Positions 1 to 10,606 of a DNA stretch of 10,606 nt are shown piece after piece. Position 1 is the stretch's first letter, and each line of letters starts with the position of its first letter. The notes under the pieces are model-generated. The model was not told the origin of the DNA, did not search any database, and saw nothing but the letters and a program-made list of their open reading frames with translations. Both the position numbers and the translations under genes were made by a program. This DNA comes from an uncultured Collinsella sp. (lineage in GTDB: Bacteria > Actinomycetota > Coriobacteriia > Coriobacteriales > Coriobacteriaceae), in contig CABQHR010000044.1 in assembly GCA_902463875.1 (NCBI GenBank), positions 1-10,606 on the forward strand. Direction: 5' to 3'.

Positions 1-2
1 CG

Positions 3-779
3 CCGTATGGTCTTGCCGTGGCAGAGCTTGCGGCAAAGGTGGCGGTCGAGGCGGGAGTGACGGTAGTTTCGGGCGGCGCGGTCGGTTGTGACCAGGCCTC
101 GGGTTGGGCTGCGGTCAACGCCGGCGGCAAACACGTCGTGGTGCTGGGGACGGGCGCCGACGTGGTCTACCCGCGTTCGAGCGCGGGGCTTATTATGCGC
201 ACGCTCGATACGGGTGGCGCGGTCGTGTCGATCTCTCCGTGGGGCATGGGTCCGCGCAAGTTTGCCTTTCCGCGCCGCAATCGCGTGATCGCGGCCCTGT
301 CGCAAGCCCTCTTTGTTTCCGAGGCGGGTATGCCTTCCGGGACGTTTTCTACAGCCGAGGCTGCTATGGATTTGGGGCGCGAACTTCTTGTCGTGCCGGG
401 GTCGATCCTATCGCCCGAGTCGCGTGGCACGAATTACCTCATTGCGAACGGTGCTTGCTGCATCATCGACGAGGAATCTATCGAGATGGCTATCTCACGC
501 ATCTACGGCACCCTGCGCTACTCGCGCCCCGATGCTCCCGGCATTGCCGACCTGGATCCAACACAGCAGACCGTGATGCATGCGCTCATCGCCTCTCCGC
601 TCAAGGTCGACGACATCGCGGCGCTCGTCTCGCTCGATGCCGTCGGCGTACTTAAGCTCCTGGGTTCGCTTGAGCTCGAGGGTCTTATCGAGCGCATGAT
701 GGATGGAAGGTATGCGCCCTCCAAGTTTGCCCTTCACGCCCAGACACCCTTCGGTCACAATGGAAAACATGTCAATTAG
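3..779 (+). CDS. dprA: DNA-processing protein DprA, 3' part (5' end outside window)
   Basis: DprA binds incoming single-stranded DNA in the cytoplasm and loads RecA during natural transformation. The frame is open from the first full codon at base 3, so the gene is cut by the window edge; the GTG at 18 is internal. The visible Rossmann-like fold carries the family motifs in order: SGGAVGCD (about 72-95), the VLGTGADVVYP segment (about 141-173), FPRRNRVIA (about 270-296), then SGTFSTAEAA and VVPGSI, and the GTNYLIANGA segment (about 426-455). Bases 558-716 encode a C-terminal winged-helix domain of the DprA type (VDDIAALVSLDAVGVLKLL). The usual AH after the GxD motif is not seen (DQASGWAA), a small deviation. 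The stop TAG is at 777-779 and trmFO begins 14 bases later, so the two are probably co-transcribed. In Bacillus topA lies between them; here it does not. Identity is secure; competence of the host is not shown. Confidence 0.95.
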   Translation, partial: PYGLAVAELAAKVAVEAGVTVVSGGAVGCDQASGWAAVNAGGKHVVVLGTGADVVYPRSSAGLIMRTLDTGGAVVSISPWGMGPRKFAFPRRNRVIAALSQALFVSEAGMPSGTFSTAEAAMDLGRELLVVPGSILSPESRGTNYLIANGACCIIDEESIEMAISRIYGTLRYSRPDAPGIADLDPTQQTVMHALIASPLKVDDIAALVSLDAVGVLKLLGSLELEGLIERMMDGRYAPSKFALHAQTPFGHNGKHVN

Positions 780-786
780 AAAGGTG
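780..786 (+). promoter_or_regulatory. Ribosome binding site deciding the trmFO start
   Basis: AAAGGTG lies 7 bases before the ATG at 794 but only 1 base before the in-frame TTG at 788. Spacing therefore favours the ATG. Confidence 0.7.
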
Positions 787-793
787 TTTGCAG

Positions 794-2131
794 ATGCTGT
801 TTGATCAGGTGACGGTTATCGGTGGCGGTCTGGCGGGTTCGGAATGCGCGATCCAGCTGGCAGACCGCGGTTTTGCCGTTAAGCTGTGCGAGATGCGCCC
901 CCAGGTTAGCTCCCCGGCTCACCATACCGATCACTTGGCAGAGCTCGTCTGCTCCAATTCGTTTAAGTCGACCCGTCCGGATTCCGCGGCTGGTTTGCTG
1001 AAGGCCGAGCTTGAGCGCATGGGTTCAGTCCTGCTCGATTGCGCCCATCGCGCGGCTGTTCCCGCTGGCGGTGCCCTGGCGGTCGACCGCGTCAAGTTTT
1101 CCGAGCTTGTCGAGGCCGAGGTTGCCGCCCGTCCCAATATCGAGGTCGTGCACGGCGAGGTCACGCAGATTCCCGAGGGCCACGTGGTCATTGCCGCGGG
1201 CCCGCTGTGTTCACCGGCGCTGAGCGAAGAGGTCATGAAGCTCGTCGGTGGCGACGCCCTTGCGTTCTTCGATGCCGCGGCGCCGATCGTCGATGCCTCC
1301 ACGCTCGATATGGACGTGCTGTTTTCGCAGTCGCGCTACGAGGAGCAGGGGAGCGGCGACTATCTCAACGCTCCGCTCAACAAGGAGGAGTACGAGGCCT
1401 TTATCGAGGCACTTACCACGGCCGACCGCGTGGTGCTCAAAGACTTTGAGGGCGGCGATCTGTTCCAGGCCTGCCAGCCTGCCGAGGAAGTTGCGCGCAC
1501 CGGCAAGGACGCCATTCGCTTTGGCGCCATGAAGCCCGTCGGCCTCACCGACCCGCGTACCGGACGTCGCCCCTGGGCGGCGATTCAGCTGCGTGCCGAG
1601 AACAAGGAGAAGACCGCCTATAACCTGGTGGGCTTCCAGACAAACCTGACCTTTGGCGAGCAGAAGCGCGTCTTCCATATGGTGCCGGGCCTGGAGAACG
1701 CTGAGTTCTTCCGCTACGGTGTCATGCACCGCAATACCTTTGTCGACGCCCCGCACGTGCTCGATGGCACCTTTGCCGTGCCCGGTACCGGCGTGCGCCT
1801 GGCCGGTCAGATCACCGGCACCGAGGGGTACATGGAAGCCGTGGCGACCGGTCTGCTCGCGGCGCTCAACACCTATGCCGAGGCTATCGGTGTCGCGGGC
1901 GTCGAGTTGCCGCGCGTGGGCGCCTTGGGTGCGCTCGTGGGCTATGCGACCGATCCTGCCACCGTGGGCTATCAGCCTATGCATGTCAACTTTGGCCTGG
2001 TGCCTCCACTCGAGGATGGTAAGCGCCGCAGCAAGCGCGACCGCTACCAGGCCTATGCGGACCGTGCGCTCGAGGCCCTTGATGCCTATCTGGCCACTCG
2101 TCCTGATCTGTTTGGAGGCGACCGGTCATAG
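794..2131 (+). CDS. trmFO: FAD/folate-dependent tRNA (uracil-54-C5)-methyltransferase TrmFO
   Basis: TrmFO makes ribothymidine at position 54 of the tRNA T-loop, using methylenetetrahydrofolate as carbon donor and FAD as reductant. The 445-residue product has the N-terminal dinucleotide-binding motif VIGGGLAGSE (residues 8-17). The HHTDHLAELVCSNSFKS segment contains Cys53, and a second cysteine, Cys227, sits in LFQACQPAEE. These match the two functional cysteines known from Bacillus subtilis TrmFO (Cys53 and Cys226). The C-terminal half has the conserved MKPVGLTDPRTGRRPWA and GQITGTEGYMEA segments. The ATG at 794 is chosen over the TTG two codons upstream because of SD spacing, and it also puts the first cysteine exactly at 53. 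The gene follows dprA closely. Its TAG stop overlaps the proposed ATA start of the recombinase. Length and motifs are normal for the family. Confidence 0.96.
   Translation: MLFDQVTVIGGGLAGSECAIQLADRGFAVKLCEMRPQVSSPAHHTDHLAELVCSNSFKSTRPDSAAGLLKAELERMGSVLLDCAHRAAVPAGGALAVDRVKFSELVEAEVAARPNIEVVHGEVTQIPEGHVVIAAGPLCSPALSEEVMKLVGGDALAFFDAAAPIVDASTLDMDVLFSQSRYEEQGSGDYLNAPLNKEEYEAFIEALTTADRVVLKDFEGGDLFQACQPAEEVARTGKDAIRFGAMKPVGLTDPRTGRRPWAAIQLRAENKEKTAYNLVGFQTNLTFGEQKRVFHMVPGLENAEFFRYGVMHRNTFVDAPHVLDGTFAVPGTGVRLAGQITGTEGYMEAVATGLLAALNTYAEAIGVAGVELPRVGALGALVGYATDPATVGYQPMHVNFGLVPPLEDGKRRSKRDRYQAYADRALEALDAYLATRPDLFGGDRS
2114..2118 (+). promoter_or_regulatory. SD sequence for the recombinase, inside trmFO
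   Basis: GGAGG lies within the last codons of trmFO, 9 bases before the ATA at 2128. No similar motif stands before the GTG at 2206, and the CTG at 2140 would be 21 bases away. The motif therefore supports initiation at 2128. Confidence 0.6.
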
Positions 2132-3048
2132 CCTTTGACCTGTACGACACCGTCGACTCGTTTATCGCCTATATCTCACGTGTCGAGGGACTTTCTCCCA
2201 ACACGGTGACGGCCTACGGCTCGAGGCTGGAGCGCTTTGCTGCCTGGTGCGAGCGCGAGGATATCGATGCTTTCGCTGCCGACGTGCGCACCATTCGCCG
2301 CTATCTTGCCGAGCTTTCGCGTGAGCAGGTGGCTCCCCGAACGCTTGCGGCGCATCTGTCGGCTATCCGATCGCTCTATCGATGGATGGCTGCCGAGGGG
2401 GTCGTGGAGGGCGATGTGGTCTCGGCAATTTCCTCGCCCAAGCTCCCGCGCGATCTACCCGGTGTGCTGACGACCCAACAGGTGGAGGCGCTGCTCAAGA
2501 CGCCTGATACCTCAACACCCGCGGGACTGCGCGATGCGGCGATGCTCGAGCTGCTCTATGCCTCGGGCGCCCGTATCTCTGAGCTCGCAGCACTCAATGT
2601 GGAGTCAATTGCGTGGTCCGAACGCACGCTGCGCCTGTGGGGCAAGGGGAGCAAAGAACGTATCGTCCCTCTGTATCGTCGTGCGCTCGAGGCGACGCGT
2701 CTCTATATTGAGGAGGGGAGGCCGGAGTTGCTCGCTCGGGCAAAGCGCCGTGACCCCGCTACCGGGGCGCATCCGCTGCTTATATCGGCGCGCGGCAATC
2801 GCATGAGTGCCGCCATGCTCAGGCGGCGGTTCCATACGCTGGCGACACTTGCCGGCATTCCGGCCGACATCGCCCCGCATGCGATGCGCCATACCTTTGC
2901 GACCGACTTGCTCGAGGGCGGTGCGGACCTGCGCTCGGTTCAAGAGCTGCTGGGTCATGCGAGCCTGTCCACGACGCAGATCTACACGCATCTCACGCCC
3001 GATCGGCTTAAGCGGGCCGTGGCTCAAGCCCATCCCCGCGGCGAATAG
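2128..3048 (+). CDS. xerC: Tyrosine recombinase XerC/XerD type, probable ATA start
   Basis: Xer recombinases resolve chromosome dimers at the dif site. From 2128 the product is 306 residues, the usual Xer length. The N-terminal SAM-like DNA-binding domain starts with DTVDSFIAYISRVEGLSPNT (about residues 7-26). The catalytic set is complete and spaced as in E. coli XerD: Arg149 in ARISEL, Lys173 in GKGSKERIVPL, His251 and Arg254 in HAMRHTFAT, His277 in LLGHASLSTTQ, and Tyr286 in IYTHL. The frame is open only from 2107 and holds no ATG, GTG or TTG before the GTG at 2206. Starting at 2206 would delete the first domain helix and give 280 residues. ATA at 2128 has GGAGG 9 bases upstream and overlaps the trmFO stop (ATAG). 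The position after trmFO matches xerC (codV) of Bacillus, but sequence alone does not separate XerC from XerD. Function is secure; the start codon is inferred. Confidence 0.92.
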   Translation: MAFDLYDTVDSFIAYISRVEGLSPNTVTAYGSRLERFAAWCEREDIDAFAADVRTIRRYLAELSREQVAPRTLAAHLSAIRSLYRWMAAEGVVEGDVVSAISSPKLPRDLPGVLTTQQVEALLKTPDTSTPAGLRDAAMLELLYASGARISELAALNVESIAWSERTLRLWGKGSKERIVPLYRRALEATRLYIEEGRPELLARAKRRDPATGAHPLLISARGNRMSAAMLRRRFHTLATLAGIPADIAPHAMRHTFATDLLEGGADLRSVQELLGHASLSTTQIYTHLTPDRLKRAVAQAHPRGE

Positions 3049-3097
3049 TGGCTGGTCCGTCCCGCGCCGCACTCAGGTGTGTGGTTTTGATTGCGGG

Positions 3098-3126
3098 TTG
3101 GCAGGAAGAAGCATTCCTGCTATCAT
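3098..3126 (+). promoter_or_regulatory. Promoter of the rpsB-tsf unit
   Basis: TTGGCA (3098-3103) and TATCAT (3121-3126) are separated by exactly 17 bases and resemble vegetative sigma-factor hexamers. TG at 3118-3119 gives an extended -10 (TGnTATCAT). Transcription should begin near 3132-3134, leaving a leader of roughly 130 bases before rpsB. The -35 and -10 spacer is filled by a perfect inverted repeat, listed separately. Confidence 0.75.
3101..3120. repeat. Perfect inverted repeat inside the rpsB promoter spacer
   Basis: GCAGGAA, six bases, then TTCCTGC form a perfect 7-bp dyad. It overlaps the last bases of the -35 hexamer and ends directly before the -10. It is not followed by a T-run, so it is not a good terminator for the recombinase gene. 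It could be an operator, but no regulator can be named. Confidence 0.6.
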
Positions 3127-3132
3127 TCATCG

Positions 3133-3267
3133 GGTTGCTTCACGGCAACAGGTTTTTATCACGCACGCGCGGCTACTTCATACCGTGGTGCCCGGGCTTT
3201 GGTAGCACATGTCCGGGTTGGTTTTGGAGGATGACCCCGCGCGGAGGCAAACCACAGGAGGTTTAAC
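3133..3267 (+). promoter_or_regulatory. rpsB mRNA leader with hairpins
   Basis: This untranslated leader contains two possible hairpins. A small stem near the predicted transcript start pairs GTTGC (3134-3138) with GCAAC (3145-3149). A stronger stem pairs CCCGGGC (3191-3197) with GTCCGGG (3211-3217), including one G-U pair, with a 13-base loop. Three SD-like purine runs follow: GGAGG at 3226-3230, GGAGG at 3243-3247 and AGGAGG at 3256-3261. Only the last has proper spacing (6 bases) to the rpsB ATG. In several bacteria S2 represses its own mRNA through the rpsB leader. A similar role here is inference. Confidence 0.4.
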
Positions 3268-3996
3268 ATGGCTACCAAGATTAATATCCGCACCCTGCTC
3301 GAGGCCGGCTGCCACTTCGGTCACCAGACCCGTCGCTGGAACCCCAAGATGAAGCCGTTCATCTTCGGTGAGCGCAACGGCATCTACATCCTTGACCTCA
3401 AGCAGACCATCCTCGACGCCGACCAGGCCTATACTTTCGTCAAGAACGTCGCCAAGGGCGGCAACGTGCTGTTCGTCGGCACCAAGAAGCAGGCTCAGGA
3501 GGCCGTCAAGAACGCTGCTGAGCGCGCCAACATGCCTTACATCAACCAGCGTTGGCTCGGCGGTATGCTGACCAACTTCGTTACCATCCGCTCCCGCATC
3601 AACCGCATGGAGGAGCTCGAGGCCATGGTCGAGGACGGCCGCATGGCTGTTCTGCCCAAGAAGGAGCAGGCTGTTCTCGGTAAGGAGCTCACCAAGCTCC
3701 AGACCAACCTCGGTGGTGCCCGCGACATGAAGGGTCTGCCCCAGGCTCTCTTCGTCATCGACACCAAGCGCGAGGAGAACGCCATCAAGGAGGCTCAGCG
3801 CCTGAACATCCCCGTCGTCGCTCTGATCGACACCAACTCCGATCCCGACGAGGTCGAGTACGGCATCCCCTGCAACGATGACGCTATCTCTGCTGTCACC
3901 CTTATGTGCGAGCTCATGGCTGACGCCTGCCTCGCTGGCTCCGGCAAGGAGCAGGTCTCCGAGGCCGAGATGGCCGCTGAGCCCAAGGCCGAGTAA
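3268..3996 (+). CDS. rpsB: 30S ribosomal protein S2
   Basis: S2 is a late-assembling protein of the small ribosomal subunit, on the solvent side near S1 and the mRNA exit. The 242-residue product starts [20 protein letters not shown]. It shows the expected segments [20 protein letters not shown] (residues 22-41), GTKKQA (71-76), [11 protein letters not shown] (94-104) and the second S2 signature beginning [16 protein letters not shown] (158-173). A charged helical segment at about 105-140 fits the coiled-coil protrusion. The C-terminal tail is acidic ([12 protein letters not shown]). AGGAGG at 3256-3261 is spaced 6 bases from the ATG. Codon use is strongly biased (lysine almost only AAG, arginine CGC/CGT), as expected for a highly expressed gene. 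It is the first gene of a two-gene unit with tsf. Confidence 0.99.
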
Positions 3997-4041
3997 ATCA
4001 GTCTTAGTTAATTCTTTTTCATCTCTTTGAAAGGAACCACA

Positions 4042-4911
4042 ATGGCCCAGATTACCGCCGCTATGGTCAAGCAGCTCCGCGAGATGACCGACTCCCCGAT
4101 GATGGAGTGCAAGAAGGCTCTCGTCGAGGCTGACGGCGACATGGACGCCGCTGTCGACGTTCTGCGTAAGAACGGCCTTGCCAAGGCTGCCAAGAAGGCT
4201 GGCCGTGAGACCAACGAGGGCGCTGTCGCCGCGTTCGTCTCCGAGGATGGCAAGACCGGCGCTCTGCTCGAGCTCTCCTGCGAGACCGACTTCGTTGGCT
4301 CCAACGCCAAGTTCACCGGCTTTGCTTCCAAGGTCGCTGAGGTTGTCGCCACCACCGAGCCTGCTGACGTCGACGCTCTGCTCGAGAAGCCGATGGGCGA
4401 GGAGACCGTTTCCTCCGAGCTCACCGAGATGATTCACATCATGGGCGAGAACATGAAGATCTCCCGCTTCGCTGCCCGCAAGGCCGAGAACGGCGCGCTC
4501 GCTTCTTACATCCACATGGGTGGTAAGATTGGCGTCCTCGTCGAGTTCGCCTTCGAGAAGGCCGAGACCGCTCAGGCTGAGTCCTTCAAGACCTTCGCTC
4601 ACGACGTTGCCCTTCAGGTTGCCGCCGTCGCACCGATCTGCGCCACCCGCGATCAGGTTCCGGCCGAGACCGTCGAGCACGAGAAGCAGATCTACATGGC
4701 CCAGGCTGCCGAGTCCGGCAAGCCCGAGGCTATCCAGGAGAAGATGGCTGTTGGCCGTCTGGAGAAGTTCTACAAGCAGTCCGTGCTCACCGAGCAGGAG
4801 TTCATCAAGGACAGCTCCCTCACCATCAAGAAGTACGCTGAGCAGGTCTCCAAGGAGCTCGGCGACACCATTACCGTCGTTGCCTTTGACCGTCTGGTCC
4901 GTGGCGAGTAA
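4042..4911 (+). CDS. tsf: Elongation factor Ts
   Basis: EF-Ts is the nucleotide exchange factor that releases GDP from EF-Tu in the cytoplasm. The 289-residue product has the N-terminal UBA-like domain (about 1-55, with VKQLREMTDSPMMECKKALV). It also has the Tu-contacting TDFV motif at residues 82-85 (SCETDFVGSN), the core subdomains (IHMGGKIGVLVEF at about 147-159) and the late KIYMAQA-like segment (KQIYMAQAAESGKP). The ATG at 4042 is preceded by GAAAGGA (4029-4035) at 6 bases. An in-frame TTG at 4027 lies upstream of that SD and is rejected. The gene follows rpsB by 45 bases with no hairpin between them, so both are made from the promoter near 3100. A strong terminator stands directly downstream. 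Codon bias is as strong as in rpsB. Confidence 0.99.
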   Translation: MAQITAAMVKQLREMTDSPMMECKKALVEADGDMDAAVDVLRKNGLAKAAKKAGRETNEGAVAAFVSEDGKTGALLELSCETDFVGSNAKFTGFASKVAEVVATTEPADVDALLEKPMGEETVSSELTEMIHIMGENMKISRFAARKAENGALASYIHMGGKIGVLVEFAFEKAETAQAESFKTFAHDVALQVAAVAPICATRDQVPAETVEHEKQIYMAQAAESGKPEAIQEKMAVGRLEKFYKQSVLTEQEFIKDSSLTIKKYAEQVSKELGDTITVVAFDRLVRGE

Positions 4912-4934
4912 ATAAGCTCTTGTAGCTGGTAATG

Positions 4935-4969
4935 AGCAGGCTGTGGGTTTTACTCACAGCCTGCTTTTT
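4935..4969 (+). terminator. Rho-independent terminator of rpsB-tsf
   Basis: A 13-bp stem forms between 4935-4947 (AGCAGGCTGTGGG) and 4953-4965 (CTCACAGCCTGCT). It has one G-U pair and a five-base loop, and its last base begins a run of five T at 4965-4969. It lies 24 bases after the tsf stop and separates rpsB-tsf from pyrH onward. Confidence 0.92.
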
Positions 4970-4972
4970 CAT

Positions 4973-4988
4973 GGCTCTTATCAGAGCC
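4973..4988. repeat. Short inverted repeat upstream of the pyrH -10
   Basis: GGCTCT, TATC, AGAGCC is a perfect 6-bp dyad with a four-base centre, covering the expected -35 and spacer region of the pyrH promoter. It may be an operator or a second minor hairpin after the tsf terminator. No strong T-run follows. Confidence 0.45.
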
Positions 4989-4990
4989 TT

Positions 4991-4999
4991 TGATATCAT
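4991..4999 (+). promoter_or_regulatory. Extended -10 promoter for pyrH and downstream genes
   Basis: TGATATCAT gives TG, one base, then TATCAT, the same TGnTATCAT extended -10 as in the rpsB promoter. No good -35 is seen at the proper distance (ATGGCT at 4971-4976). The site lies just after the tsf terminator and would start transcription near 5006, about 22 bases before pyrH. A promoter is needed here because of the terminator; the exact site is inferred. Confidence 0.55.
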
Positions 5000-5014
5000 A
5001 TTGAGAGTCTAATT

Positions 5015-5022
5015 AAAGGAGG
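5015..5022 (+). promoter_or_regulatory. Strong SD before the TTG start of pyrH
   Basis: AAAGGAGG lies 6 bases before TTG at 5029. It is an almost perfect anti-16S match and fixes the TTG as start codon. Confidence 0.8.
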
Positions 5023-5028
5023 ATCGCT

Positions 5029-5751
5029 TTGTCCGACATCCGATATAAACGCGTGCTTCTTAAGCTTTCCGGCGAAGCACTGATGGGCGACGGCCAATAT
5101 GGCATTGACCCCAAGGTTACCGACCATCTTGCCAAGCAGGTCAAGGAGCTGCTCGCCGTTGGCCATGAGGTCGGCGTCGTTGTCGGCGGCGGCAATATTT
5201 TCCGCGGCATGGCAGGCGCTGCCGGTGGCATGGAGCGTGCTCAGGCCGACTACATGGGCATGCTGGCAACCGTTATGAACGCGCTCGCCCTGCAGGATGC
5301 CTTCGAGCATAACGATGTTCCCTGCCGCGTGATGAGCGCTATCCAGATGAACGAGATCTGCGAGCCCTATATTCGCCGTCGCGCTATCAACCACCTTTCC
5401 AAGGGCAACGTTGTTATTTTTGCCGCCGGTTCGGGCAATCCGTACTTTACGACCGACACCGCCGCGGCTCTTCGTGCGTGCGAGATCGGCGCTGAGATTC
5501 TGATTAAAGCCACCAAGGTTGACGGCATCTACGACAAGGATCCCGTCAAGTGCGCCGATGCCGTCCGTTTTGACAAGATTACCTATCACGAGGTTCTCGT
5601 CCACGGTCTGCAGGTTATGGATTCCACGGCTACGGCTCTGTGTCAGGATAACCGTATGCCGATTTTGGTCCTCAACATCGATGGCGAGGACACCGTCAAG
5701 CGCGCGCTCGCGGGTGAGCCCGTCGGCACGCTCGTCTATCAGGAGGATTAA
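5029..5751 (+). CDS. pyrH: Uridylate kinase (UMP kinase)
   Basis: PyrH phosphorylates UMP to UDP with ATP, the step after de novo UMP synthesis, and belongs to the amino-acid-kinase fold (usually hexameric). The 240-residue length is typical. Visible motifs are the N-terminal [11 protein letters not shown] (residues 10-20), the glycine loop [11 protein letters not shown] (50-60), the UMP-binding segment [18 protein letters not shown] (133-150) and [13 protein letters not shown] (160-172). The start is TTG, with a near-perfect SD and no ATG or GTG close by in frame before the conserved KLSGEAL. It is the first gene after the tsf terminator. frr begins two bases after its stop, so the pair is translationally close. 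Confidence 0.98.
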
Positions 5752-5753
5752 GC

Positions 5754-6290
5754 ATGGCAGAGAACATCACCGCCCATATGGACAAGTCGCTCGAGTCCCT
5801 CAAGCATAACTTCTCCAAGGTTCGTACCGGCCGCGCCAATGCCAACATTCTGTCCGACATCACCGTCGATTATTACGGTGTTCCCACGCCGGTCACGCAG
5901 GTTGCCGCCGTCAAGACCCCCGAGGCTCACATGCTGCTCATCGAGCCGTGGGACAAGGCGCTCATCAACGCTATCGTCAAGGCCATCGGCGCTTCCGATC
6001 TGGGCATTACCCCCAACTCCGATGGCACCGTCGTTCGTCTGCCGTTCCCGGCCCCCACTGAGGAGCGCCGTCGCGAGCTCGTCAAGGAGTGCCGTGAGTA
6101 CGCCGAGCAGGCCAAGGTGTCTATCCGTAACATCCGTCGCGACTTCAACAATAAGCTCGAGCGCGATGAGGAGCTCACCGAGGACGATGTCCGTCGCGAG
6201 CAGGCCAAGGTCCAGAAGCACACCGATGAGTATGTCGCCAAGGTCGAGGAGCTTCTGAAGGAAAAAGAAGCCGAGGTCATGGAGATCTAA
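5754..6290 (+). CDS. frr: Ribosome recycling factor
   Basis: RRF acts with EF-G to split post-termination ribosomes into subunits. The 178-residue product covers the whole family. Helix 1 carries SLESLKHNFSKVRTGRANANIL (residues about 12-33), followed by the domain II segment VDYYGVPTPVTQVAAV and the conserved LPFPAPTEERRRELVKEC. The C-terminal helices have IRNIRRDFNNKL and an acidic and lysine-rich end. It is a few residues shorter than the E. coli protein (185), mainly at the N-terminus. AGGAGG at 5741-5746, inside the end of pyrH, is 7 bases before the ATG. The stop at 6288-6290 is one base before the GTG of uppS. Confidence 0.98.
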   Translation: MAENITAHMDKSLESLKHNFSKVRTGRANANILSDITVDYYGVPTPVTQVAAVKTPEAHMLLIEPWDKALINAIVKAIGASDLGITPNSDGTVVRLPFPAPTEERRRELVKECREYAEQAKVSIRNIRRDFNNKLERDEELTEDDVRREQAKVQKHTDEYVAKVEELLKEKEAEVMEI

Positions 6291-6291
6291 G

Positions 6292-7086
6292 GTGCAATAC
6301 GACGAGCATAAACTGGTCGAGTACTTTGCCGACGCCCCTGCGGGCGTCGGTTTTTCCGACCTTGACCTCAATAACATTCCGCACCATATCTCGTGCATCA
6401 TGGACGGCAACGGTCGTTGGGCCACGTCGCGCGGTCTTGCGCGCACTGAGGGCCACAAGGCGGGTATCGTCTCCCTTCGCGAGATCATTACCGCCTGCGT
6501 GCGCCTGGGCGTCGACGTGCTTTCTGCCTATGCGTTTTCTACCGAAAACTGGAACCGTCCGCAGCATGAGGTAAACGTCTTGATGCATCTGTTTGCCAAG
6601 ACTTTCATCGACGAGCTGCCGCTTCTGAAGCGCGAAAACGTGCGTGTTGTCTTTTTGGGTGATATTTCAGCGCTGCCCAAGAAGACTCGCGACGTTTTTG
6701 AACGCGGTCTAGCCGAGTGCGCCGATCACACCGGTATGACGCTGGCGCTTGCCGTCAACTACGGCGCGCGTGCCGAGATTACCCGCGCTGTCCGTCAGAT
6801 TGCACTCGACGCTGCCGCCGGTAAGATCGATCCTGCCGCAATTGATGACGACATGGTGGCTTCCCATCTCTATACCGCCGGCCTTCCCGATCCTGAGCTT
6901 GTGATTCGCACCTCTGGTGAGCTGCGCCTTTCGAACTATCTGCTGTGGCAGGTGGCTTATTCCGAATTCTACGTCACCGATACCTATTGGCCCGACTTTG
7001 ATCGTTGGGGCCTTGTCGACGCCATTTTGGCCTATCAGGGCCGTGACCGTAGGTTTGGTGGACTGAGCAAGACCGAGGAGGCTTAA
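6292..7086 (+). CDS. uppS: Isoprenyl transferase (undecaprenyl diphosphate synthase)
   Basis: This cis-prenyltransferase condenses isopentenyl diphosphate units on a farnesyl-type primer to give the C55 lipid carrier for cell-wall synthesis, at the inner face of the membrane. The 264-residue product has the catalytic motif IMDGNGRWA with Asp38, SAYAFSTENWNRP (residues 78-90) and the C-terminal IRTSGELRLSNYLLWQ (205-220) with YSEFY (223-227), which bind the diphosphates. GTG at 6292 is the only ATG/GTG/TTG codon ahead of the conserved IPHHISCIMDGN block, and GGAG at 6281-6284 is 7 bases upstream. The N-terminal extension of about 30 residues is encoded by DNA that also forms a perfect terminator-like hairpin (6329-6355). 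The strict product chain length cannot be read from the sequence; gene order favours the essential UppS. Confidence 0.96.
   Translation: MQYDEHKLVEYFADAPAGVGFSDLDLNNIPHHISCIMDGNGRWATSRGLARTEGHKAGIVSLREIITACVRLGVDVLSAYAFSTENWNRPQHEVNVLMHLFAKTFIDELPLLKRENVRVVFLGDISALPKKTRDVFERGLAECADHTGMTLALAVNYGARAEITRAVRQIALDAAAGKIDPAAIDDDMVASHLYTAGLPDPELVIRTSGELRLSNYLLWQVAYSEFYVTDTYWPDFDRWGLVDAILAYQGRDRRFGGLSKTEEA
6329..6355 (+). terminator. Terminator-like hairpin and T-run inside the uppS 5' coding region
   Basis: CCGACGCCC (6329-6337) and GGGCGTCGG (6342-6350) pair perfectly over 9 GC-rich bp with the loop CTGC, and TTTTT follows at 6351-6355. This has the form of an intrinsic terminator but lies 37 bases into uppS. 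A competing small stem is possible between GTCGG (6346-6350) and CCGAC (6356-6360). It may act as a conditional attenuator; activity is inferred from shape only. Confidence 0.55.
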
Positions 7087-7088
7087 TC

Positions 7089-7988
7089 GTGTCCGATCGT
7101 CCCAAGGCATCTGCTCCCAAGACGCCTGCGCGCAAAGCTGCCACTGCGGGAGCGCCTGCAGCGAAGAGCGGCACCGGTTCGTGGCTGGCGGGCTTTATTA
7201 CCCGTGCCGCCGCCGGTATCGTCTACGCCGTTGTCTTTATCCTGTGCCTGGTTTTGGGTATCGTGCCCACGGCCATCTTTGTTTCTGTCATGAGCGGTCT
7301 GTGCTGCTATGAGTTTTTCCGTATGACAAGGCTTGATGGCAAGATGGCTAACGAGCGCATGGGTATCGCTGCCGCCGTACTCTTTCCGCTGTCGGCGTTG
7401 GGCGATTCGATGTTGCTGAATGCCCTGCTTTTTGCCCTGATGCTCGCTGTGGGCATTTGGTATGTCTGGTCGCCGCGTACCCGCATCTCTGATGTGGCAG
7501 TGACGCTCATGGGTCCCATCTACACTGGCTTTATGCTGTCGGCTATCGTGCTGCTGCGCGATGCCGTGCCCGGTTTTGCCGGCGCCCTGCTTTCAGTGGG
7601 CGTTTGCGCGTCCCTTTGGGTCTCCGATTCGTTTGCCTACATCGTGGGCAGCCGTATCGGCAAGCACAAGATGGTTCCCAAGATTTCTCCCAAAAAGAGC
7701 TGGGAGGGGTTTGTCGGCGGCATCCTGGGCTCGGTTTTGATTTGGCTCATCCTGTGGGCGACGCACTTCTACAAGCTCAGCCTGCCCTATGCGCTGCTGT
7801 GCGGCGTGGTCGTGTCCATTCTGGGCGTTATCGGCGACCTTATCGAGTCGCGCATCAAGCGCGGTGTGGGCGTCAAGGATTCCGGCAACCTTATCCCGGG
7901 CCACGGCGGCATGCTCGATCGTAGCGATTCGCTTATCTTCGGTTGCATCACCGCGCAGCTGTTGCTGATGATCGGAGGCGTGCTGTAA
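7089..7988 (+). CDS. cdsA: Phosphatidate cytidylyltransferase (CDP-diacylglycerol synthase)
   Basis: CdsA joins phosphatidic acid and CTP to CDP-diacylglycerol, the precursor of bacterial phospholipids, in the cytoplasmic membrane. The 299-residue product has a cytosolic-looking basic, Ala/Pro/Lys-rich tail (residues 1-30). Several hydrophobic segments follow, at about 40-62, 62-75, 92-127, 135-155, 163-187, 210-226, 233-252 and 282-298. The family signature lies at 254-281 (SRIKRGVGVKDSGNLIPGHG, then GMLDRSDS). The metal- and CTP-binding residues KD and DRxD are kept, but the residue between DR and D is Ser where a hydrophobic residue is common. Start GTG at 7089 is 7 bases after AGGAGG (7076-7081) and two bases after the uppS stop. 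The stop overlaps the dxr start by one base. Confidence 0.96.
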   Translation: MSDRPKASAPKTPARKAATAGAPAAKSGTGSWLAGFITRAAAGIVYAVVFILCLVLGIVPTAIFVSVMSGLCCYEFFRMTRLDGKMANERMGIAAAVLFPLSALGDSMLLNALLFALMLAVGIWYVWSPRTRISDVAVTLMGPIYTGFMLSAIVLLRDAVPGFAGALLSVGVCASLWVSDSFAYIVGSRIGKHKMVPKISPKKSWEGFVGGILGSVLIWLILWATHFYKLSLPYALLCGVVVSILGVIGDLIESRIKRGVGVKDSGNLIPGHGGMLDRSDSLIFGCITAQLLLMIGGVL

Positions 7989-9223
7989 TGTCCTTCCAGA
8001 CGACGTATGGCCCTGATGGACGCCTTCGCGTTGCCATCCTGGGTTGTACGGGCTCTATCGGCACCCAGGCGCTCGATGTGTGCCGCCAGCATGCCGATCG
8101 CCTGCAGGTGACGGCGCTGTCCGTTAACTCCAGTACCTCCGAGCTCGTTGCCGCTGCCCGCGAGTTCTCGGTTCCGGCGGTTGCCGTGGCCGATGTCGAT
8201 CATGGCGATGACGCCGTGCTGCAGGAGTTGCCCGAGGGAACGAAGCTCGGCGTTGGCGCGCAGGCGGTTTGCGAGCTCGCACGTCGCGACGATGTCGACT
8301 GCGTGCTTGTCGCTATTGTGGGCGCCGCCGGTCTCGAGGCGAGCCATGCGGCCTTGACCTCGAATAAGCGCCTTGCCCTTGCCAACAAGGAGTCCCTCGT
8401 CGTCGGTGGCGACTTGCTTATGCCGTTGGCGCAACCGGGCCAGCTTATTCCAGTCGACTCTGAGCACTCCGCCATTTACCAGTGCTATCTGGGGGAGAAC
8501 CCGCGCGAGGCTCATTGTATTTGGCTCACCTGCTCGGGCGGTCCGTTCTTTGGCTGCACGCGCGACGAGCTCGATCGCGTGACGCGTGCCGATGCCCTCG
8601 CGCATCCCACGTGGGCCATGGGTGCCAAGATCACCATTGACTCCGCCACCCTCATGAACAAGGGCCTGGAGCGCATTGAGGCCATGCATCTGTTTAACTG
8701 CGACCTCGATTTCATTAACGTGGTCGTGCAGCGTCAGTCCAAGATTCACTCTATGGTCGAGTTCGCCGACGGCTCCGTGATGGCGCATCTCGGTGCATCC
8801 GACATGCGTATTCCCATCCAGTTCGCGTTCTCGTATCCCGAGCGTTGGGATACCCCGGCGCCTCGTATCGATTTCCGCGAGCTGGGGCAGCTCACGTTTG
8901 ATGCTGCCGACATGGATACCTTCCGCTGTCTGGCACTGGCCGAACGCGCCGGCAAGACGGGTGGCACCATGCCGTGCGTGCTCAATGCCGCCAACGAGGT
9001 CGCCGTCGATGCCTTCCTGCACGATGGCTGCAGCTTTACCGATATCGATCGCATTGTGGAATCCTGCATGGACGCCCACGATATGCAGGCGGTCGATTCG
9101 TTTGAGCAGCTTCGCGACATCGATTCGTGGGCGCGTGAAAAAGCTGCGTTTGAGCAGCTTCGCGACATCGATTCGTGGGCGCGTGAAAAAGCTGCGCAGG
9201 TGCTCGCCGCAACCCGTTCCTAA
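7988..9223 (+). CDS. dxr: 1-deoxy-D-xylulose 5-phosphate reductoisomerase, with internal 16-residue duplication
   Basis: Dxr converts DXP to 2-C-methyl-D-erythritol 4-phosphate with NADPH and a divalent metal, the committed step of the MEP isoprenoid pathway. The 411-residue product has the NADPH loop ILGCTGSIGTQ (residues 17-27), LANKESLVVGG (131-141), the metal-binding PVDSEHSAIYQ with Asp157 and Glu159, TCSGGPFFG (181-189), HPTWAMGAKITIDSATLMNK with GLE (Glu228, third metal ligand), and LNAANEVAVDAF (332-343) before the C-terminal helical domain. ATG at 7988 overlaps the cdsA stop (TAATG) with GGAGG at 7974-7978. An in-frame upstream start would overlap cdsA needlessly. Residues 372-387 (FEQLRDIDSWAREKAA) are repeated exactly as 388-403. 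Without one copy the length would be 395, the usual range. All catalytic residues precede the repeat, so activity is likely kept. Confidence 0.97.
   Translation: MSFQTTYGPDGRLRVAILGCTGSIGTQALDVCRQHADRLQVTALSVNSSTSELVAAAREFSVPAVAVADVDHGDDAVLQELPEGTKLGVGAQAVCELARRDDVDCVLVAIVGAAGLEASHAALTSNKRLALANKESLVVGGDLLMPLAQPGQLIPVDSEHSAIYQCYLGENPREAHCIWLTCSGGPFFGCTRDELDRVTRADALAHPTWAMGAKITIDSATLMNKGLERIEAMHLFNCDLDFINVVVQRQSKIHSMVEFADGSVMAHLGASDMRIPIQFAFSYPERWDTPAPRIDFRELGQLTFDAADMDTFRCLALAERAGKTGGTMPCVLNAANEVAVDAFLHDGCSFTDIDRIVESCMDAHDMQAVDSFEQLRDIDSWAREKAAFEQLRDIDSWAREKAAQVLAATRS
9101..9196 (+). repeat. Exact 48-bp tandem duplication in dxr
   Basis: Bases 9101-9148 are repeated without any mismatch as 9149-9196, in frame (16 codons per unit). 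The period-48 match begins two bases earlier, at 9099, and breaks after 9196, so the tract is two copies plus 2 bp. Identity at every third-codon position points to a recent event or an assembly error. Confidence 0.97.
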
Positions 9224-9248
9224 CCCATAAGGATTGCTTTTTCGTTTT

Positions 9249-10606
9249 ATGGATACTGTTCTGAGCGTTCTCTCATCGGTCTTTTGGGGCCTGTTGATGC
9301 TTTCCGTCCTCGTGTTTTTGCACGAGGGCGGCCACTTTTTGGCGGCGCGTGCCTGCGGCGTCCGGGTGACTGAGTTCTTCTTGGGCCTGCCGTGCCGCTT
9401 TGATATCCATCACACATCGCGTCGCATTGGAACCAAGTTTGGCGTGACGCCGCTGCTGCTGGGTGGCTATGCTGCCATTTGCGGCATGGATCCGACCGAC
9501 GTCTCGTGTGCCGATCGCGTGCTCGCGGCCATCTATCGCCACGGCCGGGTGACGGTGGCCGATCTTGCCGTCGAGCTCGAGCTGTCCGAGGAGGATGTGC
9601 TCGAGGCCTGTGCTTTGCTGTTGGGCTGGGGCTCTATCGCTCCCTGGTATGAAGAAGGGGAAAAGCCTTCGCCCAGCTACTATCCCACCAAGTACCAGAC
9701 TCTGCCGCGTGACGCGGCGGGTTATACCACCTTTGACGGCCGTCGGTTCGATCGCGGGCATGCGACTGCCGAGGGCGATGTATGGGAACTGCCGTGCGAC
9801 GAGGCCGAATTCCTTGCGCGCGAGCGCTCGCACACCTATTTGGGCCAGGGCTTTGTCAAGCGTGCCTTTATGCTGCTTGCGGGCATTATCGTCAATATCC
9901 TGACGGGTTTTTTGCTCCTTATGAGCATCTATTCCATTGCGGGTGTCACCGTGCCGATGGATACCAACGTGATCGGTCAGGTTGACGAGGGGTCTATTGC
10001 CGCCAAGGCGGGTATCGAGGCCGGTGACGCGATTCTTTCGGTCGACGGTGTATCGTGCTCTACCTGGATGGACGTTTACGATGCCATCGGCAAGGCTGCC
10101 GGTAAGGACGATATCGCCATTGAGTACGAGCGTGACGGCAAGCAGCATTCGACCACGGTTGCGCTCAAAGAGGACGATCGCCTAGGTGTGTATGCCTCTA
10201 CGCAGGTGGTCCGTTTAGACCCCATCACGTCGGCTCGCCTGTCGTTCTCCTATGTTGTGCAGACAGCGGAGGGCGTGATGCGCCTGCTCCAGCCGCAGCA
10301 TACGATGGAGATTCTCGATCAGTCCTCTTCGATCGTGGGTATTAGCGTTATGTCCTCACAGGCTGCTGCTGCCGGCCCTGCCACGTTCCTTTCGTTTGCC
10401 GCCCTCATTTCATTCTCGCTTGGCTTTATGAACCTGCTGCCCATCCCGCCACTCGATGGCGGCAAGCTAGTCATCGAGATCATTCAGAAGATTGCGGGCC
10501 GCGAGCTTCCGCTCAAGGTCCAGACGATTGTGAGCTATGTGGGCATCGCGCTCTTTGCGCTGCTGTTTGTCTATATGCTTCGTTCCGACATCCTTCGATT
10601 TATTCT
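9249..10606 (+). CDS. rseP: RseP-family site-2 intramembrane metalloprotease with inserted winged-helix-like domain, 3' end outside window
   Basis: RseP/RasP proteases cut transmembrane proteins such as anti-sigma factors and signal-peptide remnants inside the membrane. The frame stays open to the window end (452 codons seen). The first membrane segment (about residues 10-30) carries the zinc motif HEGGH (25-29). The membrane-associated loop PLLLGGYAAICGM (68-80), second membrane segment RAFMLLAGIIVNILTGFLLL (205-224, Asn216), one PDZ domain (about 238-308), the zinc-ligand segment NLLPIPPLDGG (395-405, Asp403) and a last membrane segment (426-444) follow. Residues about 82-200 form an unusual insertion in the cytoplasmic loop. 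Within it, 88-135 resemble a winged helix. No stop or well-spaced SD decides the start: AAGGA (9229-9233) is 15 bases before the ATG, and the in-frame TTG at 9234 touches that motif. The ATG fits the N-terminus of the family. The gene follows dxr by 25 bases. Confidence 0.94.
   Translation, partial: MDTVLSVLSSVFWGLLMLSVLVFLHEGGHFLAARACGVRVTEFFLGLPCRFDIHHTSRRIGTKFGVTPLLLGGYAAICGMDPTDVSCADRVLAAIYRHGRVTVADLAVELELSEEDVLEACALLLGWGSIAPWYEEGEKPSPSYYPTKYQTLPRDAAGYTTFDGRRFDRGHATAEGDVWELPCDEAEFLARERSHTYLGQGFVKRAFMLLAGIIVNILTGFLLLMSIYSIAGVTVPMDTNVIGQVDEGSIAAKAGIEAGDAILSVDGVSCSTWMDVYDAIGKAAGKDDIAIEYERDGKQHSTTVALKEDDRLGVYASTQVVRLDPITSARLSFSYVVQTAEGVMRLLQPQHTMEILDQSSSIVGISVMSSQAAAAGPATFLSFAALISFSLGFMNLLPIPPLDGGKLVIEIIQKIAGRELPLKVQTIVSYVGIALFALLFVYMLRSDILRFI
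9510..9653 (+). other. Winged-helix-like segment within RseP
   Basis: Residues 88-135 of the protease read as helix 1 (ADRVLAAIYRHG), helix 2 (VTVADLAVELE), a recognition-type helix (SEEDVLEACALLLGWGSI) and a following turn and strand region. This is the pattern of small winged helix-turn-helix domains. It lies between the membrane-associated loop and the second membrane segment, which is cytoplasmic in RseP. The call rests on pattern only, without a profile search. Confidence 0.6.

Follow-up and report, generated by a model that had tools for sequence, protein, structure and literature searches.

RseP-type site-2 proteases are known to read their substrates from outside the cell via PDZ domains. 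The substrate of Escherichia coli RseP pairs with an edge strand of the protease, Gly67-Val70, whose Tyr69 is situated where membrane and cytosol meet (PMC10024687). SpoIVFB, an M50 protease of site-2 protease group 3, has a soluble cytoplasmic domain of its own; this C-terminal CBS domain is reported to help substrate association by aiding the binding of pro-sigmaK, without being strictly required (PMC6242693). An effect of EcsA on RasP of Bacillus subtilis has also been described (PMC7478892). Here we report on the rseP-like gene at the end of a contig of an uncultured Collinsella sp. (CABQHR010000044.1, positions 1 to 10,606; hereafter the window, 10,606 nucleotides long). Its product, P0001, carries an insert in the first loop that we confidently predict to be a winged helix-turn-helix domain followed by a tail. 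The domain is found in most of the Coriobacteriia sampled, and may serve as a docking or gating module on the cytoplasmic side of the protease.

P0001 differs from the RseP of E. coli and Aquifex aeolicus (M50B) in that it has a single PDZ domain where they have two, and in that the loop after its edge strand is longer by about 100 residues, which include the predicted winged helix. It resembles SpoIVFB as an M50 protease with a soluble, putatively cytoplasmic domain of its own, but the CBS domain of SpoIVFB is C-terminal whereas the winged helix sits in the first loop, and the two proteins belong to different subfamilies. No CBS domain matched P0001 at E <= 1, within the 452 residues that are seen before the gene continues beyond the window end and the final residues of the protein fall outside it. 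P0001 has the marks of an RseP: both zinc/catalytic motifs, HExxH (residues 25-29) and LDGG (402-405), a single extracytoplasmic PDZ domain, and a score above the family cut-off. In an alignment of 111 rows, made up of P0001 and 110 of its 360 listed homologues, H25, E26, G28 and H29 of the first motif are invariant, as are N395, P398, P400, P401, D403, G404 and G405 around the second. The features of the gene, in window coordinates, are as follows.

9249..10604, plus strand: rseP-like M50 site-2 protease gene, the last gene of the window (Pfam Peptidase_M50, 1.5e-42; NCBIfam TIGR00054 'RIP metalloprotease RseP', 189.4 bits, cut-off 147.55)
9321..9335, plus strand: HEGGH zinc-binding/catalytic motif, residues 25-29 (sequence; 111-row alignment)
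9462..9479, plus strand: strand E72-77 (GGYAAI), the predicted counterpart of the substrate-binding edge strand of E. coli RseP (AlphaFold2; GGY motif; PMC10024687)
9510..9701, plus strand: predicted winged helix-turn-helix domain, residues 88-151 (AlphaFold2; class-wide profile matches; MarR_2 as the commonest Pfam match)
9588..9626, plus strand: predicted equivalent of the H3 recognition helix, residues 114-126, acidic (AlphaFold2 limits; charge of the aligned helix)
9702..9827, plus strand: lineage-specific tail, residues 152-193, missing in deep lineages with a short insert (loop alignment; AlphaFold2)
9852..9941, plus strand: predicted helix 202-231, which forms the transmembrane segment that follows the insert (AlphaFold2)
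9969..10115, plus strand: single PDZ domain, residues 241-289 (Pfam PDZ_6, 1.3e-10)
10431..10463, plus strand: NLLPIPPLDGG motif, second catalytic segment, residues 395-405 (sequence; invariant positions)

The initial annotation had noticed an unusually long insert in this loop of the protease. The insert is real and is located, as proposed, in the loop that follows the edge strand, but its length had been put at about 115 residues; GGYAAICGM (residues 72-80) and KRAFM (from residue 204) are separated by 123. In the loop alignment, the stretch from GM to GFVKR counts 120 residues in locus L002, versus 13-24 in ten short-loop relatives (L143, L144, L145, L149, L150, L151 and the insert-less class members L158, L160, L161 and L162), which amounts to a net insertion of about 100 residues. 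A tblastn search returned 20 loci, all from Collinsella, with best identities of 97-98% (Collinsella aerofaciens); the insert is in frame and inside one match in 19 of these, while L020 covers the C-terminal part only. An assembly artefact was rejected, because the insert occurs in independent isolates as well as in metagenome-assembled genomes (MAGs).

Structure prediction, which the initial annotation had named as one test that could overturn its proposal, returned a helix-turn-helix fold. The full-length AlphaFold2 model, based on the 111-row alignment, has a mean predicted local distance difference test score (pLDDT) of 89.0 and a predicted template modelling score (pTM) of 0.82, and the ten-residue blocks of residues 81-200 reach pLDDT values of 85-97. 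Its elements within the insert (H88-98, E100-102, H103-110, H114-126, E130-132 and E148-151) follow the order H1-S1-H2-H3-S2-wing-S3 of a winged helix. The wing is long, and two further helices (161-166 and 185-193) come after these elements. G99, L110, L124 and W127 are invariant or nearly so in the same alignment. We assign the fold because of this model and the relatives, not because of the window's sequence alone. Helix 1 of the winged helix starts at residue 88, 13 residues past the predicted substrate edge strand, in which GGYA (residues 72-75) corresponds to Gly67-Val70 of E. coli RseP.

The insert matched no known family over its whole length, in NCBIfam, in Pfam or in a profile search of solved structures. 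The best Pfam match was MarR_2 (PF12802), which stayed below its curated cut-off of 27 bits for both P0001 (17.2 bits) and the window's insert (19.6 bits). MarR_2 was also the commonest Pfam family at E <= 0.01 among 57 inserts (10/57, best 1.9e-07), next to stray single matches such as TetR_C_31, TPR_12 and YcaO. Scores of relatives are borderline: precomputed PF12802 assignments exist for three of the 360 listed homologues (P0018, P0124, P0139), and the RseP reading frame of genome G006 scored 27.2 bits in a genome search and 24.0 bits when the same protein was run through hmmscan. NCBIfam yielded no family for the window's insert and none that matched more than two of 43 inserts. A profile of these 43 inserts found nothing better than E 0.081 among solved structures; the top rows (DDRGK1/UFL1, MntR and FtsK chains) were not significant. 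The insert shares the order of secondary structures with MarR_2-type winged helices, but it differs from them by its place in a membrane protease, its acidic recognition helix, the near-invariant W127 before the second strand, and its long wing.

The domain is widespread in the class. We sampled 296 class genomes drawn around G001 (the genome of L002) and searched them with the profile of the 43 inserts, scoring at most 15 first-look candidates per genome at a threshold of E <= 0.001. The profile matched in 279 of the 296. Two of the remaining 17 have a diverged insert by reading (G257, G289), four have an RseP with an ordinary short loop (G009, G038, G041, G044), and eleven yielded no complete RseP, including G096 and G152, where a fragment of RseP lies at a contig end. 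In a sample of 346 genomes from the phylum, the profile matched every one of the 31 that also belong to the class sample (E <= 1.9e-15). The same insert was not found outside the class: the best match among the 315 non-shared genomes was 5.0e-6, in a scan that scored no more than the top 13 first-look candidates of each genome, a limit that could hide a weak relative. Matches between 5.0e-6 and 1e-3 occurred in 42 non-shared genomes, and in the 21 of these where the place of RseP is known, the match lies elsewhere. We also aligned 65 loops, namely the loci from 63 class genomes chosen by match score plus L002 and L039. Counted from GM up to the Asn in the transmembrane segment that follows, all of them span 102-182 residues, and in each a stretch resembling a helix-turn-helix closes with a conserved Trp, replaced by Tyr in L102. 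A second finding that would have told against the initial annotation was an insert already widespread and characterised in RseP proteins. Widespread in the class it is, yet no characterisation was found: searches of the open-licence literature turned up no account of an RseP-type protease with a winged helix, nor of any RseP from this class, with subscription papers mostly outside this search. To that extent, the remark of the initial annotation that it knew of no such description is supported.

Two homologues stood out in this survey. P0223, from a MAG labelled Candidatus Limnocylindrales with a longest contig of 3104 bases, carries the insert and is probably mis-binned. P0027, at 572 amino acids, has repeats at two places, within its winged helix and ahead of the second transmembrane segment, which look like duplications of the gene itself or of its assembly.

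We built a FastTree phylogeny from 326 core columns without the loop, for 93 proteins of which 80 are from the class. It groups the class with moderate local support (0.779) and, within the class, places the four insert-less proteins with deep insert-bearing lineages (0.981). Support is 0.913 for the insert-less group, 0.929 for the deep lineages with insert and 0.979 for the remainder. A single gain on the stem lineage of the Coriobacteriia followed by a single loss is the simplest reading, so that the short loop of the four class genomes probably reflects loss of the insert. These four short-loop members (L158, L160, L161, L162) have genomes of 0.9-1.5 Mb.

In the deep lineages L093-L102, whose close hits include named Anaerosomatales and Coriobacteriia MAGs, the insert is barely more than the winged helix. 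The tail is present in proteins that, by inferred family labels, are Coriobacteriaceae- and Atopobiaceae-like. Judged by this loop alignment, the tail is lineage-specific and outside the ancestral domain. The Tyr/Asp/Arg-rich C-terminal half noted in the initial annotation does exist, but as such an extension.

Loss of the PDZ domain did not entail loss of the winged helix. Eight RseP proteins of 357-372 amino acids (L103, L125-L131) lack the PDZ domain and keep the winged helix; none of the six that were scanned had a PDZ match, while Peptidase_M50 was found. A PDZ-less protein was matched over nearly its full length within 1065-1113 bases in 32 genomes, one of them shared with the eight. Thus, at least 39 genomes (8 plus 31 further) have a PDZ-less RseP that retains the winged helix, a count that is not a rate since the 32 were picked by their short frame from the insert matches.

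The charge of the domain is unlike that of its nearest Pfam relatives. Across the 43 inserts, the recognition helix carries a net negative charge in 42 (mean -3.88), whereas this holds for 4 of 30 MarR_2 domains used as controls (mean +0.70); for the domain as a whole, the counts are 42 of 43 and 7 of 30. The controls came from 20 class genomes, and relatedness among the sequences means that the p values should be read with caution. Taken over its full length, the insert is net negative in 43 of 43 cases. In place of the basic or neutral recognition helix expected of a DNA-binding winged helix, these proteins have an acidic one. The initial annotation had suggested that the domain could bind DNA or RNA. 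Given the acidity of this helix and of the domain at large, this now seems unlikely on sequence grounds. The charge argues against the usual mode of nucleic-acid binding rather than against every mode.

We give about an even chance to the explanation that the winged helix is a cytoplasmic protein-docking or gating module of a housekeeping RseP. The initial annotation, too, had proposed a cytoplasmic partner or gating, which is plausible and is the reading preferred here. A single acquisition on the stem lineage of the Coriobacteriia would have introduced the domain, and most of the class would have retained it. The domain no longer has the appearance of a nucleic-acid binder; on the cytoplasmic side of the membrane, tethered a few residues past the substrate-clamping strand, it would offer a docking surface for proteins. 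There it may bind the cytoplasmic part of a substrate or a cytoplasmic partner. Such binding could affect cleavage by helping to admit, hold or position substrates from within the cell, a counterpart to the role of the PDZ domain outside. In favour of docking we count the confident fold, the class-wide spread, the acidic recognition helix, the retention in PDZ-less RseP, and conservation, with mean pairwise identities within groups of 0.50, 0.48, 0.44 and 0.68 for the winged helix versus 0.37, 0.37 and 0.39 for the PDZ domain (the fourth group is without PDZ). We also count the binding of substrate by the edge strand of E. coli RseP at the interface of cytosol and membrane (PMC10024687).

Several results weigh against a docking role. 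Modelled alone, with 18 near-identical sequences, the insert reached a mean pLDDT of 59 and a pTM of 0.39, and showed three helices with the wing absent. The AlphaFold2 evidence consists of per-residue confidence and secondary structure, and any contact between the domain and the protease core is putative. Among 19 Collinsella genes, the ratio of nonsynonymous to synonymous substitution rates (dN/dS) was 0.023 in the N-terminal core, 0.039 in the winged helix, 0.046 in the region of the second transmembrane segment, 0.068 in the C-terminal core, 0.079 in the tail and 0.099 in the PDZ domain, but this order leans toward the insert because the proportion of synonymous differences (pS) varies by region from 0.17 to 0.37 and is highest there (winged helix 0.37 vs PDZ 0.26), so that the low dN/dS of the winged helix is partly due to its high synonymous rate. 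By the proportion of nonsynonymous differences (pN), the winged helix (0.020) exceeds both the N-terminal core (0.0045) and the C-terminal core (0.0147), with the PDZ domain at 0.0306. The four class genomes with a short loop imply that the domain is dispensable in some lineages. A comparable charge is possible in a spacer as well, and no partner, binding or activity was seen in these computational analyses.

An alternative explanation might be that the domain is a structural spacer or brace. It would need no partner, and would lend the protease stability by lying against either the second transmembrane helix or the membrane-reentrant sheet. We regard this as possible, with a probability clearly below that of docking. 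Long inserts at the same site occur in RseP of some other Actinomycetota (86-95 residues in L132-L135 and 110-129 in L137-L142). They had no Pfam match above cut-off, and profiles of the L137-L142 and L132-L134 inserts revealed no relation to the Coriobacteriia insert. The loop therefore tolerates unrelated inserts, which keeps this explanation alive, since size or bracing may be what counts; moreover, four class members manage without the domain. Yet the same fold and the residues G99, L110, L124 and W127 are kept through most of the class, also where PDZ is absent, which would be unexpected for a plain spacer.

It is improbable, in our estimate, that the domain is the docking site for one specific cytoplasmic machine, an ATPase or unfoldase, in the role that EcsA plays for RasP, a protease whose own loop we take to be short. 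In its favour, EcsB (PF05975), part of the EcsAB of B. subtilis, was found in none of 24 class genomes, while the search did detect it in the positive controls B. subtilis and Lactococcus lactis. However, EcsB was also missing from 12 of 14 control genomes, so that its absence from the class is ordinary. No machine was identified, and the structural match to 9a6w reflects RasP, not EcsA. Least probable of all is a membrane-tethered domain that binds DNA or RNA and so anchors the protease at the nucleoid or on transcripts. Apart from the acidic charge, the structural match that might suggest it is weak and derives from the model with pLDDT 59, and the fold is no proof of function.

The setting of the gene agrees with a housekeeping protease. 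The long plus-strand open reading frames of the window are, in order, what we take to be dprA, trmFO, a tyrosine recombinase gene, rpsB, tsf, pyrH, frr, uppS, cdsA, dxr and rseP, and the dxr-rseP neighbourhood is presumably an ordinary housekeeping one. The region of the dxr 3' end contains an exact 48-base tandem duplication (window 9101-9196, copies starting at 9101 and 9149). This 48-base unit is present as one copy in 15 of 19 Collinsella relatives; the other four were not read by the pattern.

The insert is a real and well-conserved novelty in a known protease family, with a function that we infer. The loop after the edge strand appears as a site where Actinomycetota add unrelated inserts. 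A more far-reaching possibility, which we consider unlikely but worth stating, is that RseP of the Coriobacteriia has come to select its substrates from the cytoplasmic side. Its acidic winged helix would then read the cytoplasmic part of substrates or a signalling partner, and in the PDZ-less clade it would have replaced the outside filter, giving an inside-out form of regulated intramembrane proteolysis. A folded domain beside the edge strand, common to most of a gut-associated class and kept after loss of the PDZ domain, makes cytoplasmic control of this protease directly testable.
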